Positions 2,307 to 38,088 of a DNA stretch of 64,000 bases are shown here, piece by piece. Numbering within the stretch: position 1 is the stretch's first letter; each line of letters begins with the position of its first letter. Position numbers and translations under genes: made by a program. The stretch covers positions 160,020 to 224,019 of the forward strand of contig JAFVHP010000048.1 of NCBI GenBank assembly GCA_017474455.1. The letters are read 5' to 3'. Below the pieces are notes generated by a model. That model did not search any database. It saw only the letters and a list, made by a program, of their open reading frames with translations, and was not told the DNA's origin. This DNA comes from Lachnospiraceae bacterium (GTDB lineage Bacteria > Bacillota > Clostridia > Lachnospirales > Lachnospiraceae).

Positions 2307-3014
2307 ATGAAGATATACGGTCTGCAGAAAATGACGCTGCTGGATTTCCCGGAGCGTGTAGCCTGTACGGTATTCCTGAACGGATGTGACCTGAGGTGCC
2401 CGTTCTGCCACAATTTCGAGCTGGTGAACGGCACTGCCGAACCGGTCATGGATGTTGAGGAGCTTTTGTCTTTCCTGAAAAAAAGACAGGGCCTTCTGGA
2501 CGGGGTCGCCATTACCGGCGGGGAGCCCTGCCTGCACAGGGATCTGCCTGATCTCATACGCGGGATCAGGGAACTGGGATATGCCGTGAAGCTGGATACG
2601 AACGGGCTGCATCCGGATATGCTGGAGAGCCTTATCGGGGACGGCCTGATCGGTTACGCGGCTATGGATATCAAGAACAGCCCGGAAAAATACGCGCAGA
2701 CATCAGGGACTGAGAGTATCGATCTGGATGCCGTTTACCGCAGTATCGCCATACTGATGGAAGGGCGTATCGATTATGAATTCAGGACGACGGCCGTGAA
2801 ACCGTTCCATGAGACGGATGATTTCGTGCGGATCGGTGAAATGATCCGCGGGGCCGACAGATATTTTATCCAGTGTTTTACGGACAGAGACACCGTACCG
2901 TACGGGAATCTCTCGGCTCCGTCGCCCGCGGAGCTGGCTGCATACGCAGATATCATGAAGGGCTATGTGAAACAGGTAAGTATAAGAGGGGTTGACATGG
3001 AAGGAGGTAACTGA
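2307..3014 (+). CDS. nrdG: Anaerobic ribonucleotide reductase activating protein (radical SAM)
   Basis: 235 residues. The radical SAM cluster motif CxxxCxxC is visible as C27, C31 and C34 (CDLRCPFC), followed by the GGEP motif near residue 71 that contacts S-adenosylmethionine. The N-terminal LLDFPER and FLNGC match NrdG2-type activases. Family knowledge: the enzyme uses a 4Fe-4S cluster and SAM to generate the glycyl radical on NrdD. Its presumed client nrdD lies 1.5 kb downstream, with the two deglycosidase subunit genes in between. The start has only a weak ribosome binding site. The stop is 4 bases before the next start, so it is probably co-transcribed with the deglycosidase genes. Confidence 0.9.
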
Positions 3015-3018
3015 AGAC

Positions 3019-3891
3019 ATGTATCATTATGACAGGAAAGGACCAAAGCGCGGCATTGCCCTTTACAGCTATTCCGCAGAATTCGGTCTGACCAAGACAC
3101 TGGAGGACTGCTTTGAAGACGTATACGATATGGGCGCGCACGGCATCGAGATCCTCGCCAACACACATATCGAGAACTATCCTTATCCTACCGATGAGTG
3201 GGTGGAAAAGTGGTTCCGTCTCTGCGACAAATATGAGATCATACCGGTCGAGTACGGCAACTGGATCGATTCGCATATCCTGGGCAGCAGGGACCTTACA
3301 ACGGAAGAATCCGTTGAGATGCTCTGCCGTGACATCAGGCTCGCGCACCGTCTCGGATTCACCGTCATGCGTACAAAGATGCCGGTCATCAACGGGGCGC
3401 TGGAACCTGTCCTGAACTGGAGGGAGATCATCAGCGCGGCACTGCCTCTTGCCGAGGAACTGAATATCAGGATGTGCCCTGAGATCCATACGCCTTCCAA
3501 CCTGAAAGGCAAGATGGTCAGCGACTATGTTGAGTTCATCGAGAAGACGGGGACGAAGAACTTCGGGCTGAACATCGATTTCTCCGTATTCCGCACCGGT
3601 TTTTCCGAAGGCGAACACAGGAGTCCCGGTTATGAGCCGAATGCGCCGGAAGATATTATCCCGCTGCTTCCTTATATCTATTGCTGCCATGCCAAGTTCA
3701 TCCATATGAGCGATGATTTTGAAGAGACCACCATCCCTTATCCGCAGATCGTAAAGATCATGCAGGACTACGGCTGGGACGGCTACCTTCTTTCCGAATA
3801 TGAAGGCGCCGACAAATATGAGCCCGGCTATGAGGTCGGCCAGACGCTCCGCAAGCAGCATATCATGCTCAAAAATATCATCGGTGACTGA
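3019..3891 (+). CDS. C-glycoside deglycosidase alpha subunit-like TIM-barrel protein
   Basis: 290 residues. The start at 3019 follows AGGAGG at good distance; an earlier in-frame ATG at 2992 lies inside nrdG and was rejected. The fold is the xylose-isomerase-like TIM barrel of sugar phosphate isomerase/epimerases, beginning [13 protein letters not shown]. Likely divalent metal ligands sit at barrel strand ends: [28 protein letters not shown] and LLSEYEG. Alone this would be called a generic isomerase, but the next gene is a beta subunit typical of C-glycoside deglycosidases (DgpB/DgpC, DfgA/DfgB), whose alpha subunit has this fold and length. The complex cleaves the C-C bond between a 3-oxo-sugar and an aromatic aglycone. 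The specific substrate is not visible. Confidence 0.75.
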
Positions 3892-3903
3892 GGAGGGAAC
3901 GAA

Positions 3904-4347
3904 ATGGAAAGAGAAGTAATCCAGTCCGTAGGATTCAGAAATACAAAAGAAGACGGGAAGGTTACGGGATTCCAGCTGAAGATCCGCCTTCCTTATTACA
4001 GAGGCATTTTCTTAAGCCAGATCCGTCCCGGAACGCTGATCGTGGACGGAGAGCGTTTTGAGAAGGAAGATATCGTATGGAATATCAAGGGTGAAGACTA
4101 TACCCTGGAAGAAATGAAGGACAACTGGAGGGATGTCCACTGGGACGTCACCTGTCCTGCCGTACTCAAGGTAAAGAAGGAAGGCGGGCTTGCCCAGGGC
4201 TATCATGACATCACGTACGGTTTCTGCTTTACGTCGTCCTATATGCCGCCCATTATGCAGGATCATCTTGATCCCGATGCCGATCCGATGTTCATTATGC
4301 CGGAATTCGGGCATCACGTGAACAGCAGGAGGCTGCTGATCGTGTAA
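3904..4347 (+). CDS. C-glycoside deglycosidase beta subunit (DUF6379/CGDB domain)
   Basis: 147 residues, starting 12 bases after the alpha gene behind GAGGGA. The sequence follows the small beta-sandwich subunit of C-glycoside deglycosidases: GFQLKIRLPYYRGIFLS in the first third, VDGERF, YTLEEM in the centre, then GGLAQGYHDI and a terminal SYMP. In characterised systems (dgpBC, dfgAB) this subunit packs against the alpha barrel and is needed for activity. It is the strongest evidence for the function of the pair. No 3-dehydrogenase is adjacent, although the characterised route needs prior C3 oxidation of the sugar; the oxidoreductase at 36017 is one candidate. Confidence 0.8.
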   Translation: MEREVIQSVGFRNTKEDGKVTGFQLKIRLPYYRGIFLSQIRPGTLIVDGERFEKEDIVWNIKGEDYTLEEMKDNWRDVHWDVTCPAVLKVKKEGGLAQGYHDITYGFCFTSSYMPPIMQDHLDPDADPMFIMPEFGHHVNSRRLLIV

Positions 4348-4363
4348 GATTGTATAGGATGCG

Positions 4364-4410
4364 GAACTATATCTTGGTACTCTAAAAACAGCGGACACAA
4401 TATATTGACA
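4364..4410 (+). promoter_or_regulatory. Probable tandem NrdR boxes upstream of nrdD
   Basis: Two matches to the NrdR operator core C(w)ATAT(a)T(w)G: CTATATCTTG at 4367-4376 (one mismatch) and the perfect palindrome CAATATATTG at 4398-4407. Their centres are 31 bp apart, the three-turn spacing usual for paired NrdR boxes. The second overlaps the TTGACA -35 element, so binding would block RNA polymerase. NrdR itself is not in the window. Confidence 0.7.
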
Positions 4411-4433
4411 CAGGCTCCCCTTGGTGATACTGT
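4405..4433 (+). promoter_or_regulatory. nrdD promoter
   Basis: TTGACA at 4405-4410 and TACTGT at 4428-4433, 17 bp apart, a sigma-A type promoter with a perfect -35 and a weak -10. It gives a leader of about 48 bases before the nrdD start and separates nrdD from the deglycosidase genes. Confidence 0.6.
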
Positions 4434-4487: not shown

Positions 4488-6962
4488 ATGTATCAGGTAA
4501 TCAAGAGAGACGGGAAAGTCGTTGAATTCAATATCGCCAAGATCAGCGACGCCATTACAAAAGCGTTCGAAGCGCTGAACAAGCAGTATCACCCGAGCGT
4601 GATCGACCTCATTTCGCTCCATGTCACATCCGATTTTGAAAGCAAGATCACAGACGATAAGATCACTGTCGAAGATATCCAGGACAGCGTGGAAAAGGTC
4701 CTTTCCGAATCCGGATACGCGGATGTCGCAAAGGCGTATATCCTTTACCGCAGGCAGCGTGAAAAAGTCCGTAATATCAATTCGGCGCTCCTGAATTACA
4801 AGGACCTCGTGGATAACTATCTGCGGATCAACGACTGGCGTGTCAAGGAGAACTCGACCGTCACATATTCGGTAGGCGGCCTGATCCTTTCCAACTCCGG
4901 CGCCATCACGGCCAATTACTGGCTCAGTGAAGTCTATGACGATGAGATCGCGGATGCCCACAGGAGCGCGGCGATCCATCTGCACGACCTTTCCATGCTG
5001 ACCGGATACTGCGCAGGCTGGAGCCTGAAGCAGCTGATCCAGGAAGGCCTGGGCGGCGTACCCGGGAAGATCACGTCTTCACCGGCCAACCATCTTTCAA
5101 CGCTCTGCAACCAGATGGTCAACTTCCTCGGCATCATGCAGAATGAATGGGCAGGCGCCCAGGCATTCTCTTCTTTCGATACATACCTTGCCCCCTTTGT
5201 AAAAATAGACAATCTGTCACAGAAGGAAGTCAAGCAGTGCGTGCAGTCCTTCGTATACGGCGTGAATACACCGAGCCGCTGGGGAACACAGGCACCTTTC
5301 TCCAACGTCACGCTCGACTGGGTAGTACCGAACGACCTTAAGAACCTGCCGGCCATTATCGGCGGCAAGGAGATGGATTTCACCTACGGCGACTGCCAGA
5401 AAGAAATGGATATGGTCAATAAGGCCTTCATCGAGATCATGATCGAAGGCGATGCCAACGGCAGAGGTTTCCAGTATCCGATCCCCACCTATTCGATCAC
5501 GCGTGATTTCGACTGGAGCGAGACAGAGAACAACAAGCTCCTGTTCGAGATGACGGCCAAGTACGGGACTCCCTATTTCTCAAATTATATCAACTCCGAT
5601 ATGGAGCCCAGCGACGTGCGTTCCATGTGCTGCCGTCTGCGCCTTGACCTGCGCGAGCTCCGCAAGAAATCCGGCGGTTTCTTCGGCTCCGGCGAATCCA
5701 CGGGTTCGATCGGTGTCGTAACGATCAATATGCCGAGGATCGGGTATCTGGCGAAGGACGAAGCGGATTTCTACGCCCAGCTCGACCAGCTCATGGATAT
5801 CGCGGCCAGGAGCCTGAAGACAAAGCGTACGGTCATTACCACGCTTCTGGACCAGGGCCTGTATCCTTATACGAAGAGATATCTCGGCCACTTCGAGAAT
5901 CATTTCTCGACCATCGGCCTTGTCGGCATGAACGAAGCCTGCCTGAACGCAAAATGGCTCAGGGCTGACCTGACGGACGAAAGATCCCAGAAGTTCACCC
6001 GCGACGTGCTCAATCATATGAGGGAACGTCTTTCCGATTATCAGGAACAGTACGGCGACCTGTACAACCTTGAAGCGACGCCCGCGGAGTCAACGGCGTA
6101 CCGCTTTGCGAAGCACGACCGGGAGCAGTTCCCCGATATCATCACGGCCAATATGAACGGGACACCGTATTACACGAACTCTTCCCATCTTCCCGTCGGC
6201 TTTACCGAAGACGTGTTCACAGCCCTGGATATCCAGGATGAGCTGCAGACGCTCTATACCTCCGGTACCGTATTCCATGCATTCCTCGGCGAAAAGCTCC
6301 CCGACTGGAAAGCGGCAGCCAACCTTGTCAGGAAGATCGCGGAAAACTACAAGCTTCCGTATTACACGATGTCGCCTACCTATTCGGTATGCAGGGAGCA
6401 CGGATATCTTACCGGCGAGCAGTATACCTGCCCTCACTACGGCCAGAAGACGGAAGTTTACAGCAGGATCACGGGCTATTACAGACCTGTCCAGAACTGG
6501 AACGATGGCAAGGCCCAGGAGTATAAGGACCGTATGGTCTACAATATCGGGCATTCCGTACTGAAACATACGGGTCCCAATCCCGCGGTGGATGACGCAA
6601 GGCCCGCGGCAGCAGTGAATACGGCTGCCGAAACAGCGGCGGACGCAGTCCATGAAACAGAGGCAGTTCCTGTCGCGGCTGCGGTCATGGAGCCTGTCGC
6701 GGAACCCGTCGTAGCCAGTGTGACGACTTCGACGGTACTTCTGTTCAAGACCCCCACCTGCCCGAACTGCAAGGCTGCCGGCGCCCTTCTTGACAAAGCG
6801 GGCGTCGCCTACAGGGCCCTCAATGCCAACGAGGAGAAGGAACTGGCGGAAAAGTTCGGTGTGAAGCAGGCGCCGACGCTGATCGTGATCAGTGAAGACG
6901 GATCGGCATTTGAAAAGTACAGAGGCGTATCGGATATCAAAGGATGGCTGATGAACAGATAA
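4488..6962 (+). CDS. nrdD: Anaerobic (class III) ribonucleoside-triphosphate reductase with C-terminal redoxin domain
   Basis: 824 residues, start chosen at 4488 behind GGGGGAG. Residues 1 to about 90 form an ATP-cone (MYQVIKRDGKVVEF), the dATP-sensing allosteric domain. The catalytic barrel includes MCCRLRLDLREL and GSIGVVTINMPRIGYL. The glycyl radical site is RITGYYRP with Gly663. After an Ala/Val/Glu-rich linker (about 690-745), residues 749-824 form a redoxin with CPNC (C758, C761) and a QAPT cis-Pro loop. Residues 620-655 normally carry a Zn knuckle, but the expected CPxCG reads CPHYG, with Tyr651 in place of Cys. The reductant is probably delivered by the fused redoxin, as for NrdD2-type enzymes that use a redoxin and not formate; this is inference. 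Confidence 0.92.
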   Translation: MYQVIKRDGKVVEFNIAKISDAITKAFEALNKQYHPSVIDLISLHVTSDFESKITDDKITVEDIQDSVEKVLSESGYADVAKAYILYRRQREKVRNINSALLNYKDLVDNYLRINDWRVKENSTVTYSVGGLILSNSGAITANYWLSEVYDDEIADAHRSAAIHLHDLSMLTGYCAGWSLKQLIQEGLGGVPGKITSSPANHLSTLCNQMVNFLGIMQNEWAGAQAFSSFDTYLAPFVKIDNLSQKEVKQCVQSFVYGVNTPSRWGTQAPFSNVTLDWVVPNDLKNLPAIIGGKEMDFTYGDCQKEMDMVNKAFIEIMIEGDANGRGFQYPIPTYSITRDFDWSETENNKLLFEMTAKYGTPYFSNYINSDMEPSDVRSMCCRLRLDLRELRKKSGGFFGSGESTGSIGVVTINMPRIGYLAKDEADFYAQLDQLMDIAARSLKTKRTVITTLLDQGLYPYTKRYLGHFENHFSTIGLVGMNEACLNAKWLRADLTDERSQKFTRDVLNHMRERLSDYQEQYGDLYNLEATPAESTAYRFAKHDREQFPDIITANMNGTPYYTNSSHLPVGFTEDVFTALDIQDELQTLYTSGTVFHAFLGEKLPDWKAAANLVRKIAENYKLPYYTMSPTYSVCREHGYLTGEQYTCPHYGQKTEVYSRITGYYRPVQNWNDGKAQEYKDRMVYNIGHSVLKHTGPNPAVDDARPAAAVNTAAETAADAVHETEAVPVAAAVMEPVAEPVVASVTTSTVLLFKTPTCPNCKAAGALLDKAGVAYRALNANEEKELAEKFGVKQAPTLIVISEDGSAFEKYRGVSDIKGWLMNR

Positions 6963-34982: not shown

Positions 34983-35984
34983 ATGAGAAAGATCGCGTTG
35001 GAAGAACACTTTGAAACAGCGCTGGACCGTGAGCTGGATAAAGAGGCAATGAAGGATTTTGTGTTCCCCATGACGGCAGACGCCGAAAGGGGCAGATATC
35101 TTGCCGATCTGTTCGATCTTCCGTTTGAAGAGCACAGATTTCCCGTGATGGACCAGGGTGAGATCGCCATCCAGGTCATTTCGCCGAACTGTCAGGCCGT
35201 CCAGTTCGCCCATGACGCCAAAAGAGCGGTGGAAATGGCAGTGCTCGTCAATGACGAGGCTGCGGAGCTTGTCGAAAGGTCAGGCGGGCGCCTGAAAGCC
35301 TTCGCCGTCCTGCCGATGCAGGATCCCGCTGCGGCTGCGGCCGAACTGGAAAAGCGGGTAAAAGAACAGGGCTTTGTCGGCGCCTTTGTGCAGGGGCAGA
35401 CAGGCCTTGGTGATTATCCTTATTACGATGACTCGGTCTATGACCCGGTCTGGGACAAGCTGGAAGAACTGGATCTGCCGATCTATATCCATCCGCGCAA
35501 TCCGAAGGCGGAGGAAGTACAGTCCCTGGCCGGCAGGGAAGAGATGCTGGCCAATACCTGGAACTGGGGATATGTGACAGGGACACTGGCGCTCAGGATG
35601 GTATTCGGCGGAGTCTTTGCAAAACATCCCGGGCTGAAAGTGATCATCGGGCACATGGGGGAAACGATACCTTATGTGCTGGCCCGCCTGGATGAGGGCT
35701 TTACCTGCAGGGGGCTTCTGGAAAAAGGAATGCTGCCGGAGCTGCCTTCGTATTATATCAAAAAGAATATCTATATCACGACGAGCGGAGGGTGGAATCC
35801 CGAAACGATGCGCTGCGCGATCAGCGCGATGGGTGCGGACCATATCATGTTCGCCGCGGATTATCCGCACTTCGTGCAGGAACAGGCCATTTCACAGATC
35901 GAGAACGCGGGTCTGTCCGAAGTGGAGATGGAAGCGGTGTGCTGGCAGACTGCTGAAAGGATACTGCATCTTAACAGCAACTGA
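34983..35984 (+). CDS. Amidohydrolase family 2 protein (gamma-resorcylate decarboxylase-like)
   Basis: 333 residues, start behind AAGGAG. Opens with KIALEEHF, the ExH metal motif of amidohydrolase-2 decarboxylases such as gamma-resorcylate decarboxylase. Further ligands: IHPRNP near residue 164 (this HPRNP wording is typical of that group), IGHMGE near residue 221 and FAADYPHF near residue 298. The family does non-oxidative decarboxylation or hydrolysis of aromatic acids. Exact substrate unknown. It sits with a Gfo/Idh/MocA oxidoreductase (33 bases on), suggesting breakdown of plant-derived aromatics or glycosides, an inference. Confidence 0.82.
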   Translation: MRKIALEEHFETALDRELDKEAMKDFVFPMTADAERGRYLADLFDLPFEEHRFPVMDQGEIAIQVISPNCQAVQFAHDAKRAVEMAVLVNDEAAELVERSGGRLKAFAVLPMQDPAAAAAELEKRVKEQGFVGAFVQGQTGLGDYPYYDDSVYDPVWDKLEELDLPIYIHPRNPKAEEVQSLAGREEMLANTWNWGYVTGTLALRMVFGGVFAKHPGLKVIIGHMGETIPYVLARLDEGFTCRGLLEKGMLPELPSYYIKKNIYITTSGGWNPETMRCAISAMGADHIMFAADYPHFVQEQAISQIENAGLSEVEMEAVCWQTAERILHLNSN

Positions 35985-36016
35985 TAAGCGGTAAGTATTG
36001 CAAAGGACGGGCTATA

Positions 36017-37009
36017 ATGAAAGAGATCAGACTGGGAACGATCGGTTCAGGTTCTATCGTACATACGATCCTCGACAGAGTCCTTCAGGTCGAAGGGATC
36101 AGCCTTGCGGCTGTTTATTCAAGAAACGAAGAGAAAGGACGGCTTCTGGCCGCGCAGTACGGCGCGGACAGGGTATACACGGATCTTGACAGGTTTTTGT
36201 CCGACGAAGAAGTCAATACTGTCTATATCGCGTCTCCAAATCTGCTGCATTACGGGCAGACCAGAAAGGCCCTGCTTTCCGGAAAGAACGTCATCTGCGA
36301 GAAACCTTTCTGCACGAAAGCAGCACAGGCTATAGAACTGGCGGAACTGGCAAAGGAAAGAGGTCTGTTCCTGGTGGAAGCGGCGCCGACCACATTTTTG
36401 CCGAATTATGAGATCCTTCTGAGAGAACTTCCCAGGATCGGCAAAGTGAAGCTGGTGATGGGCAATTACAGCCAGTATTCCAGCCGTTATGATCTCCTGA
36501 AAAAGGGAGAGGTCACGAACGTCTTCGATCCTGCCTTCGCGGGCGGAAGCCTGATGGACATCAATTTTTACAATATTTACCTGAACGCCGCCCTGTTCGG
36601 CAGACCGGCAGAGGCAGTATATACACCGAACCGCTTCGGCAGCCTTGCCGATACATCCGGTGTCATGACCTTAAAATACGACGGGTTTGTCAGTACACAG
36701 GCAGGCGCAAAGGATACCTGGGGAGTGAATTATTTCCAGATCGAAGGGGAAGACGGGTTTATTTACATTAAGGACGGGAGCAACGGGCTCGGTGAGATCA
36801 GGGTAGTCACAAAAACCTCTGACGAACTGTTCGACCTGCAGAAGGACCACGACCGGTGGTTCTATGAAGTACAGGAGCTCACAAGGCTGTTCCTCGCGGG
36901 GGACCTTGAGTCTGTCTGGAAAAGGCTGGACATAACGGTCATAACCGCGGAAGTGATCGAAAAGGCCCGTAAAGACGCCGGTATTTTCTTCCCGGGAGAT
37001 GATGAATGA
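36017..37009 (+). CDS. Gfo/Idh/MocA family oxidoreductase
   Basis: 330 residues, start behind AAAGGACGGG. N-terminal Rossmann fold with LGTIGSGSIVHTILD and the signature CEKPFCTKAAQA near residue 95, where Lys is the expected catalytic residue. The C-terminal alpha/beta domain contains GGSLMDINFYNIYLNAALFG near residue 176. The family oxidises sugars or derivatives with NAD(P). Members such as DgpA oxidise the C3 hydroxyl of glycosides ahead of C-glycoside deglycosidase, so it is a candidate partner for the genes at 3019-4347, but it is 32 kb away. Followed by a bidirectional terminator. Confidence 0.88.
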   Translation: MKEIRLGTIGSGSIVHTILDRVLQVEGISLAAVYSRNEEKGRLLAAQYGADRVYTDLDRFLSDEEVNTVYIASPNLLHYGQTRKALLSGKNVICEKPFCTKAAQAIELAELAKERGLFLVEAAPTTFLPNYEILLRELPRIGKVKLVMGNYSQYSSRYDLLKKGEVTNVFDPAFAGGSLMDINFYNIYLNAALFGRPAEAVYTPNRFGSLADTSGVMTLKYDGFVSTQAGAKDTWGVNYFQIEGEDGFIYIKDGSNGLGEIRVVTKTSDELFDLQKDHDRWFYEVQELTRLFLAGDLESVWKRLDITVITAEVIEKARKDAGIFFPGDDE

Positions 37010-37046
37010 ACCGGGTGCGATCCTTACAGATCCGTGTCTGAATCAT

Positions 37047-37096
37047 AAAAAGAGCATTGCCCTTCAGGTCCGTTTCCGGCAGGCAATGCTCTTTTT
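37047..37096. terminator. Bidirectional terminator between convergent genes
   Basis: A perfect 15-bp stem AAAAAGAGCATTGCC / GGCAATGCTCTTTTT with a 20-base loop; A-run on one side and T-run on the other serve both the oxidoreductase (plus) and the alpha/beta hydrolase (minus). Confidence 0.85.
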
Positions 37097-37125
37097 TTCT
37101 GCGGATAAAAGTGCATCCCGGCGGA

Positions 37126-38088
37126 TCAGATCCCCAGTGCTTCTTTTATAAAGTCATCCACGATGTCACAGGCTTCGTCCGAGCGGAAGCCGCCGGGGCC
37201 GTGCCCCGCGCCTGTCAGCTTATACATCTTCGCGCTCTTGCCCAGTTCCTTCAGTTTTTCATACAGCTGGACCGACTGGTGGAAAGGCACTTTTTCATCA
37301 AAGCCGCCGTGCATGATCAGGATGGGCGGTGTCTTTTTATCTGCCCGCAGATACTGGATGGGATCCGCTTTCCTTGCAAGATCCGGATGGTCGGGGATGT
37401 ATACGCCGCCCAGCATCAGGCCTTCGGGGGAAGCAGGGTCGTTATGATCCATGGCGCTCGGCCAGCAGGCCATATGCAGGATGTCTGTAGGCCCGTACCA
37501 GTCCACGATGGCCTGGACTTCGCAGGAGTACTCGGAGTATTCGCTGCCGCATTCTTCCTCGTCGCCGGTGATCCCGGTCATAAGGGCTACGTGGCCGCCG
37601 CTGGAGCAGCCCCAGATGGCGACCTTTTCGGGATCGCATTTATATTCCGCGGCATGTTTCTTCATAAAGCGGACGGCTGTCTTGATATCTTCCATATGAC
37701 CGGGAAAAGGACAGACGTCACTGGGACGGTATTCGGGAACGGCTACGACGTACCCTTTCTGGCACATGTAGATGTGCTGTGCGATATTGGCGCCGATATC
37801 CTGTTTCAGCCATCCGGAACCCTGTACGAATACGATCAGCGGATAGACAGGGACGGATGCTTCGTCGCCCGATTCGGTGGGAAGGCCGCCGTCAAAGGGG
37901 ACAGGCCTGTATATATCCATGTATAGCGTTGTCCCTTCATGCATGCAGTAAGGGATCCTGTAGGTCAGAGATACCGAATAATGCCGTTTTTCCTCGATCT
38001 TTATTTCGACCGCGCCCTCCGGAAGCTCGTCGGTTTCTTCGATCTGGCTTACAGGAGGCAGATAAGGCAGGGAATCCAGGTTGTTCAT
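37126..38088 (-). CDS. Alpha/beta hydrolase (BD-FAE-like esterase)
   Basis: 320 residues, start behind AAAGGAG. The oxyanion strand is VFVQGSGWLKQD near residue 93; the nucleophile elbow reads WGCSSGGHVAL near residue 159 (GxSxG); the acid is in IMHGGFDEKVPFHQS near residue 262; the His is in GAGHGPGGF near residue 303. No signal peptide, so cytoplasmic. The wording resembles carbohydrate-acyl or feruloyl esterases of gut bacteria that release ester groups from plant material. Converges on the oxidoreductase and amidohydrolase genes, which may form one catabolic neighbourhood. Confidence 0.83.
   Translation of the reverse strand: MNNLDSLPYLPPVSQIEETDELPEGAVEIKIEEKRHYSVSLTYRIPYCMHEGTTLYMDIYRPVPFDGGLPTESGDEASVPVYPLIVFVQGSGWLKQDIGANIAQHIYMCQKGYVVAVPEYRPSDVCPFPGHMEDIKTAVRFMKKHAAEYKCDPEKVAIWGCSSGGHVALMTGITGDEEECGSEYSEYSCEVQAIVDWYGPTDILHMACWPSAMDHNDPASPEGLMLGGVYIPDHPDLARKADPIQYLRADKKTPPILIMHGGFDEKVPFHQSVQLYEKLKELGKSAKMYKLTGAGHGPGGFRSDEACDIVDDFIKEALGI

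Follow-up and report, generated by a model that had tools for sequence, protein, structure and literature searches.

A 64,000-nucleotide stretch of a Lachnospiraceae bacterium genome (contig JAFVHP010000048.1 of assembly GCA_017474455.1; hereafter the window) carries, at 3019-4347, a pair of genes for the alpha and beta subunits of a C-glycoside deglycosidase, placed between nrdG and nrdD. We consider it probable, at about 80%, that this pair is a working lyase of the EuCGD (DfgA-DfgB) type that has been displaced to a site behind nrdG and is fed in trans by shared 3-dehydrogenases. Positions without a label are those of the window; C, L and G numbers are our labels for contigs, loci and genomes, with C30 the contig of the window.

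The pair is an EuCGD orthologue with an intact active site

The dfgA orthologue (3019..3891, + strand) encodes an alpha subunit of 290 residues and the dfgB orthologue (3904..4347, + strand) a beta subunit of 147 residues, with a gap of 12 bases between them. A sequence-only reading of the window had annotated a deglycosidase pair with exactly these coordinates, and the database searches bear it out. The alpha subunit matched Pfam AP_endonuc_2 (PF01261) with 63.5 bits (cut-off 31.1) and the beta subunit matched CGDB (PF19906, C-glycoside deglycosidase beta subunit) with 129.5 bits (cut-off 27.6); NCBIfam, searched at E 0.001, had no model for either. The top Protein Data Bank matches of the two proteins were the two chains of a single entry, 7bvs (DfgA-DfgB), with 585 bits to 7bvs_A spanning all 290 alpha residues and 233 bits to 7bvs_B over the 147 beta residues. 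The alpha subunit aligned with DfgA over 290 residues without gaps at 83.4% identity, and 102 of the 146 aligned beta residues (70%) are identical to DfgB. The alpha subunit is a TIM barrel of the xylose-isomerase-like family in which the lid domain is absent. Comparison with DfgA and DfgB further revealed the longer alpha loop of EuCGD (121-133) and its beta loop (residues 110-139). By sequence comparison, the pair is a new EuCGD orthologue with every EuCGD feature that can be compared in this way. As annotated, its locus lacks the rest of a dfg cluster, which is a contiguous A-B-C-D-E with the 3-oxidase DfgE.

In AgCGD2 the metal ligands are E147, D179, H269, K271 and E305, the catalytic residue is H149, and a further Glu has a supporting role (Mori et al. 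2021, PMC8563793). All seven counterparts are present in the window alpha subunit: ligands E155, D187, H224, K226 and E260, the base H157, and E262. The earlier annotation had been staked on a CGDB match of the beta subunit and on the metal ligands of the alpha subunit, and both were found. In the beta subunit of PuCGE, exchange of Tyr39 for Phe abolished nearly all C-glucoside cleavage and lowered O-glucoside cleavage only 2.4-fold (Bitter et al. 2023, PMC10628242), and this tyrosine is reported as a general trait of the known enzymes of the family. Its counterpart, matched via the structure-hit alignment, is Tyr32 of the window beta subunit, and a counterpart is kept in 33 of the 33 beta subunits of the genome. 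Tyr303 of the PuCGE alpha subunit was considered as a similar test and was not used; a Tyr aligns there in 6 of 34 alpha subunits, including that of the window, and the alignment is loose in this region.

Orthologous dfgA loci were collected in a scan of named genomes as the best 80 of 220 confirmed relatives of an alignment of eight alpha subunits from the genome; they share 75-88% identity, and rumen, rabbit, goat, sheep and deer are among the sources given in their record titles. The seven active-site residues are kept in all 80. At columns conserved in at least 90% of rows, the window alpha subunit departs from the consensus once in 189 (80 rows) and the beta subunit once in 72 (77 rows, since three loci yielded no beta subunit of sufficient length). 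Compared with four orthologues, the alpha gene showed a nonsynonymous divergence (dN) of 0.089-0.106 and a synonymous divergence (dS) of 1.36-1.72; the comparison with a fifth was saturated. As judged from these patterns, the pair is under strong purifying selection. The sequence-only reading had offered, as one alternative, that the substrate is not a flavonoid. This gains no support from the alignments, in which the predicted proteins follow the consensus at 188 of 189 alpha columns and 71 of 72 beta columns.

The pair occupies a site that is empty in congeners

The gene upstream of the pair, nrdG (2307..3014, + strand), encodes an anaerobic ribonucleotide reductase activase of the NrdG2 type (TIGR02495, 199.4 bits; cut-off 131.15). 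The gene downstream, nrdD (4488..6962, + strand), encodes an anaerobic ribonucleoside-triphosphate reductase of 824 residues, with matches to NRDD (632.9 bits), ATP-cone, Glutaredoxin and NF006126 (1154.6 bits), and its start at 4488 is backed by the gene caller and by congeners. To compare this interval, 62 genomes of the genus, including that of the window, were searched with a threshold of at least 45% identity for nrdG. A match was found in 28 other congeners. In 18 of these loci nrdG is followed by nrdD on the same strand at a distance of ~130-360 bases, so the statement that the two genes are normally adjacent holds for the genus; nrdD lies on the other side of nrdG in two, and eight have no nrdD in the stretch examined. 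Neither dfgA nor dfgB was present in any of the 28 nrdG stretches, and the site was empty in all 18 loci with nrdG followed by nrdD.

The dfgA gene starts 4 bases after the end of nrdG at 3014. Its likely ribosome-binding site, AGGAGG at 3002..3007 (+ strand; read from the sequence), lies within the last nrdG codons, 11 bases before the ATG, and a ribosome-binding-like site also precedes dfgB. The nrdG product ends here in RGVD-MEGGN, and the added MEGGN codons hold the AGGAGG; in 10 of the 18 congener loci the stop codon directly follows RGVD. We place the left junction at or beside the nrdG stop codon, and the 4-base spacing suggests that dfgAB may be co-transcribed with nrdG. The right junction is placed upstream of the nrdD promoter block. 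The 140 bases from dfgB to the nrdD ATG contain this block, CACAATATATTGACA...TACTGT, intact; by congener alignment it forms a putative promoter, TTGACA-17-TACTGT, at 4405..4433 (+ strand). An NrdR-box-like sequence, ACACAATATATTGA, at 4395..4408 (+ strand) lines up with a similar sequence of the congeners, and the repeat upstream of nrdD is one that we take to resemble NrdR boxes. A promoter block of like kind was seen by eye in 15 of the 18 congeners (126 bases aligned), of which 11 fit a loose hexamer-spacing pattern; two of the other three (L042 and L043) carry such a block further upstream. The earlier proposal that nrdD has its own promoter is consistent with the conserved block; a generic consensus promoter scan did not list this promoter.

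No mobile element was seen by eye at the junctions compared; repeats and insertion sequences were not searched for by program. The dfgA leaders of the orthologous loci, inspected by eye, are too unlike the MEGGN leader of the window to name a donor. A quick tree, which carried a long-branch warning, was rejected as a guide to a sister or donor, since it placed the window alpha subunit alone in an unresolved fork of 64 rows. Transfer of the pair from outside is possible. Further out, TPR and DUF4037 genes lie upstream, and nrdD is followed by a TrxB-like gene and then by ileS, the latter identified from its sequence alone. The C-terminus of NrdD carries a glutaredoxin/thioredoxin-like domain at residues 745-817 (frame read from 4482). 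Beside the pair no dehydrogenase, transporter or regulator was seen, in agreement with the sequence-only reading.

We also examined the site from the side of dfgA. One of the 80 orthologous loci, L108 from Eubacterium sp. RUI459, encodes a DfgA identical to the solved chain and served as the reference. Its gene order is an AraC-GH39-like gene (27% match), dfgA, dfgB, a 278-residue isomerase-like gene, two Gfo/Idh/MocA-type dehydrogenase genes (425 and 357 residues) and an MFS_2 transporter gene; the names DfgC, DfgD and DfgE are assigned by gene order after dfgA and dfgB. Across the 80 loci dfgB follows dfgA in 79, and the 80th is ended by a contig edge. nrdG was found in none of the 80, three of which (L084, L138 and L146) have fewer than 500 bases upstream. 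nrdD was present in two and adjacent in neither, being on the opposite strand in L105 and separated by an AraC-GH39-like gene in L118. Homologues of the L108 DfgC, DfgD and DfgE with at least 50% identity occurred in 17, 15 and 19 of the 80 loci. For the 41 loci with both 6-kb flanks, a Gfo/Idh/MocA homologue lay in the 12.9-kb stretch in 25 and was missing from 16 (six query proteins, E 1e-5). Among the genomes examined, the nrdG-nrdD placement is therefore particular to this one, and the window pair is not peculiar in having no dehydrogenase beside it.

The genome carries 33 deglycosidase beta subunits

A profile search of the genome's own contigs returned 33 CGDB matches, all above the cut-off, on 14 contigs of a 2.62-Mb genome; 14 control genomes gave no CGDB match. 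Within the genus, seven of the 62 genomes had matches, with 33 here followed by 9, 5, 2, 2, 1 and 1. In one congener (G020), eight matches fall within 46 kb of one contig (C8:59463-105269, L162-L164). A draw of 396 genomes from the family contained 36 with a match (35 above the cut-off), the next highest being G114, in which all 11 that were scored, of 17 candidates, matched. A draw of 393 genomes from the order contained 16 (15 above the cut-off), and none besides the window's own had more than three. These draws are overlapping samples of genomes of varying completeness, in which scoring was limited to 11 candidates per genome (11 of 12 in G097; 11 in the window's own genome, G000). For 50 of the 80 dfgA loci the source genomes were searched as well; the highest count was 16 (G501), and one genome had no match. 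Any other genome searched thus has at most 17 CGDB matches, against 33 here. In the open-licence literature, searched by family and enzyme names, we recognised no description of dozens of such pairs in a single genome.

By gene calling, all 33 beta subunits adjoin or are fused to an alpha subunit. The seven active-site residues are complete in all 34 paired alpha subunits; five isomerase-like neighbours that are not paired with a beta subunit do not have all seven. Four genes are fusions. Three are in alpha-beta order, at C6:71427 (L022:10427-11839), C26:193016-194461 (L028) and C19:141571-143028 (L031/L032), and one is in the beta-alpha order known from 8qrz, at C19:133439-134851 (L031). The beta subunit at C19:99251 (frame C19:99170-99499) aligns with only 64 of the 112 profile positions, perhaps as a broken copy; its adjoining alpha subunit keeps the seven residues. 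The beta subunit at C10:56293 is divergent (37 bits).

Recent tandem amplification was considered as the main source of the 33 copies and rejected: the median pairwise identity of the alpha subunits within the genome is 29%, which indicates an old and diverse set rather than a recent burst. Fourteen of the 34 alpha subunits score higher against one of 124 outside alpha-like frames than against any paralogue in their own genome. The closest two, C26:191176-192267 and C39:27883-28986, are 77% identical, lie on different contigs and each have their own beta subunit, and those at C30:17957 and C30:19318 are 70% identical.

Candidate partner genes are unlinked from the pair

The dfg genes and MFS_2, which lie side by side in L108 in the order A, B, C, D, E, MFS_2, are spread over different contigs in this genome. 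A DfgC orthologue (83% identity) is encoded at C19:136079-136906 and a DfgD orthologue (78%) at C21:34826-36103, the best solved relative of the latter being DgpA (97 bits). A full-length DgpA homologue (292 and 290 bits) is encoded at C30:82016-83083, on the contig of the window and ~80 kb upstream of the pair. The protein at C17:61051-62187, the best match to DfgE, scored 169.5 bits against DgpA2, which was solved with isoorientin, and its top match is the unnamed oxidoreductase 3e18 (324 bits). By homology, C30:82016-83083 and C17:61051-62187 are candidate 3-oxidases. These unlinked homologues of DgpA, DfgD and DgpA2/DfgE lend support to the earlier suggestion that the pair acts on 3-oxo-sugars produced at other sites in the cell. 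Within the window, 31 kb from the pair, 34983-38088 contains an Amidohydro_2 gene and a Gfo/Idh/MocA dehydrogenase gene (36017-37009), with a BD-FAE esterase gene on the opposite strand; this cluster possibly serves plant-phenolic metabolism.

To see whether oxidases accompany the other lyases, we located the 15 Gfo/Idh/MocA matches of the genome (14 above the cut-off) relative to the beta subunits, taking distances between profile-match starts. None lay within 3 kb of any of the 33 beta subunits, one lay within 5 kb and five within 8 kb, a number that is not clearly above chance (binomial P 0.066 at 8 kb). The sequence-only reading had set the pair apart from known clusters; the absence of a flanking dehydrogenase stands, and its being unusual does not, given the 16 of 41 orthologous loci that are likewise without one and the 33 beta subunits of this genome that have none within 3 kb. 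DUF3502-type sugar-binding lipoproteins gave a different picture, as 13 of 21 lie within 8 kb of a beta subunit, a zone that makes up 15% of the genome (P 1.5e-6, in a binomial test that ignores the clustering of lipoprotein genes). Some deglycosidase loci also have AraC-GH39 genes (five in the stretches examined) or ABC permeases, for example C19:129-143 kb. There, an island spanning L031 (C19:129513-141999) and reaching into L032 consists of a lipoprotein, two ABC permeases, a beta subunit, the beta-alpha fusion, an alpha subunit, the DfgC orthologue, a second sugar-binding lipoprotein, an AraC-GH39 gene and an alpha-beta fusion. The window pair has no lipoprotein, AraC-GH39 or permease neighbours, which fits a displaced copy.

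Proposed mechanism and alternative explanations

By homology, the alpha subunit would bind Mn2+ and its base His157 would take the C2 proton of a 3-oxo-glucoside, while the beta subunit would close the pocket and Tyr32 would stabilise the aglycone oxyanion. The aglycone would then be released by beta-elimination, for example from 3''-oxo-C6-glucosyl flavones or xanthones. The 3-oxo substrate would come from Gfo/Idh/MocA dehydrogenases encoded elsewhere, apparently common to the 33 lyases. The nrdG-nrdD site may have been a landing place that gives the pair a housekeeping transcript, with no functional tie to deoxynucleotide synthesis needed; the position itself is probably without function.

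Several points weigh against this reading. The displaced arrangement was seen in one assembly only. The genome has no close DfgE, the best match being 34% identical over 329 residues (C17:61057-62025), and the oxidases proposed as partners of the pair are candidates from a search that covered the Gfo/Idh/MocA family. The activity of the pair on 3-oxo-C6-glucosides and its assembly into an alpha4beta4 complex, both EuCGD traits, are predicted from sequence, and its transcription with nrdG from the 4-base gap. Finally, residues conserved across the family do not fix the substrate, and PuCGE also cleaves 3-keto O-glucosides (PMC10628242).

In the strongest alternative, the pair cleaves other 3-keto-glycosides, mainly O-glycosides, and C-C cleavage is a side activity. 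PuCGE accepts 3-keto-glucosides of both the O and the C type, and among plant compounds O-glycosides are more common (PMC10628242). The genome keeps orthologues of DfgC and DfgD, which are described as O-glucosidases (PMC11170127), and lacks a close relative of DfgE, reported to be the C-glucoside oxidase. Against this, the pair shares orthologue-level identity and both loops with EuCGD, which is reported to act on C6-glucosides (PMC8563793), and the tyrosine on which C-glucoside cleavage depends in PuCGE is kept in every beta subunit of the genome, even if as a general family trait. We regard this alternative as unlikely, at perhaps one chance in five.

That the pair is a neutral passenger, copied in and unused by the strain, is improbable. 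An arrangement seen once, with no adjoining regulator, transporter or dehydrogenase, would suit such a passenger; the strong purifying selection, the agreement with the consensus at nearly all conserved columns and the ribosome-binding-like sites before both genes argue otherwise. Still less probable is a functional position, in which expression together with the reductase activase ties C-glycoside cleavage to anaerobic growth or redox state. The 4-base gap and the ribosome-binding site inside nrdG are what such coupling would predict, but the linkage occurs in one genome only, with nrdG in 0 of 80 dfgA loci and dfgAB in 0 of 28 congener nrdG stretches. Since the host, as a member of the Lachnospiraceae, probably lives as an obligate anaerobe, such coupling would have little to connect. 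It is equally hard to credit an assembly artefact that joined dfgAB into the nrd locus, or contamination that inflates the 33 copies. The assembly does consist of 51 contigs, and its contamination is estimated at 1.3%. An artefact would, however, take two joins around 1.33 kb inside a 224-kb contig, and the nrdD promoter block is undisturbed. Contigs of at least 97 kb carry 26 of the 33 beta matches. In tetranucleotide profile, 26 deglycosidase-bearing stretches correlate with the window at 0.911-0.978 and seven stretches from other genomes at 0.384-0.886; four pieces of the window, themselves part of what they are compared with, give 0.966-0.985.

We thus favour a displaced, working EuCGD-type lyase fed in trans. 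The presence of about thirty more such enzymes suggests that this gut bacterium specialises in C-glycoside-type plant compounds. More tentatively, and with slightly less than even odds, the host may be a specialist for C-glycosides (3-keto-glycosides) with many lyases and few oxidases, in which up to ~15 Gfo/Idh/MocA dehydrogenases feed 33 aglycone-specific metal lyases and the nrdG-linked copy is the constitutive member. If the enzymes are active, this one organism would provide a natural panel for studying the control of aglycone specificity by the alpha-beta pocket, as the pairs characterised to date are too few to reveal it easily. It would also show that C-glycoside oxidation and cleavage can reside in unlinked, reusable modules. 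Species of this kind would then escape any search for C-glycoside degraders that insists on an entire dfg or dgp cluster.

Comparison with known systems

The closest known system is EuCGD (DfgA-DfgB) of Eubacterium cellulosolvens (PDB 7bvs, 7dre and 7exb), which the window pair resembles in identity, missing lid, beta loop, ligands and base. The two differ in context: in the EuCGD-type locus L108, dfgAB stand before C, D, E and MFS_2 and after the AraC-GH39-like gene, whereas in the window dfgAB stand alone between nrdG and nrdD. PuCGD/PuCGE (DgpB-DgpC) of strain PUE (PDB 7bvr, 7exz and 7xrf) shares the architecture of an alpha and a beta subunit, the ligand positions and Tyr39 of the beta subunit. 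PuCGD gave weaker matches (137 bits for the window alpha subunit and 60 bits for the beta subunit), and the DgpC chain 7xrf_A (324 residues) matches the window alpha subunit in two separate stretches only. The PuCGD alpha subunit is described with a lid domain (PMC8563793), which the 290-residue window alpha subunit does not have.

Scattered dfg and dgp genes are already known (PMC11170127, PMC12101588). Goris and Braune (2024, PMC11170127) report a single dgpABC operon in strain PUE and, in Catenibacillus scindens, a dgpA located away from dgpBC. Dispersed dfg genes are also described for CAKRHR01 sp934339005, an uncultured gut species tied to mangiferin conversion (PMC12101588, 2025). In that species dfgAB themselves are described as dispersed, whereas in the present genome dfgAB are paired and C and D lie elsewhere. 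The part that a specialist may find surprising is the genome-wide expansion, with lyases uncoupled from oxidases. The flavonoid degraders C. scindens and C. decagia (PMC11170127) have several deglycosidase pairs, as does the genome of the window. C. decagia, with six dgpBC clusters, DfgAB and 11 DgpA homologues, has the most pairs that we found reported for one genome in the text available (PMC11170127); the 33 CGDB matches of the present genome, which has 15 Gfo/Idh/MocA matches, are nearly five times the number of those pairs.

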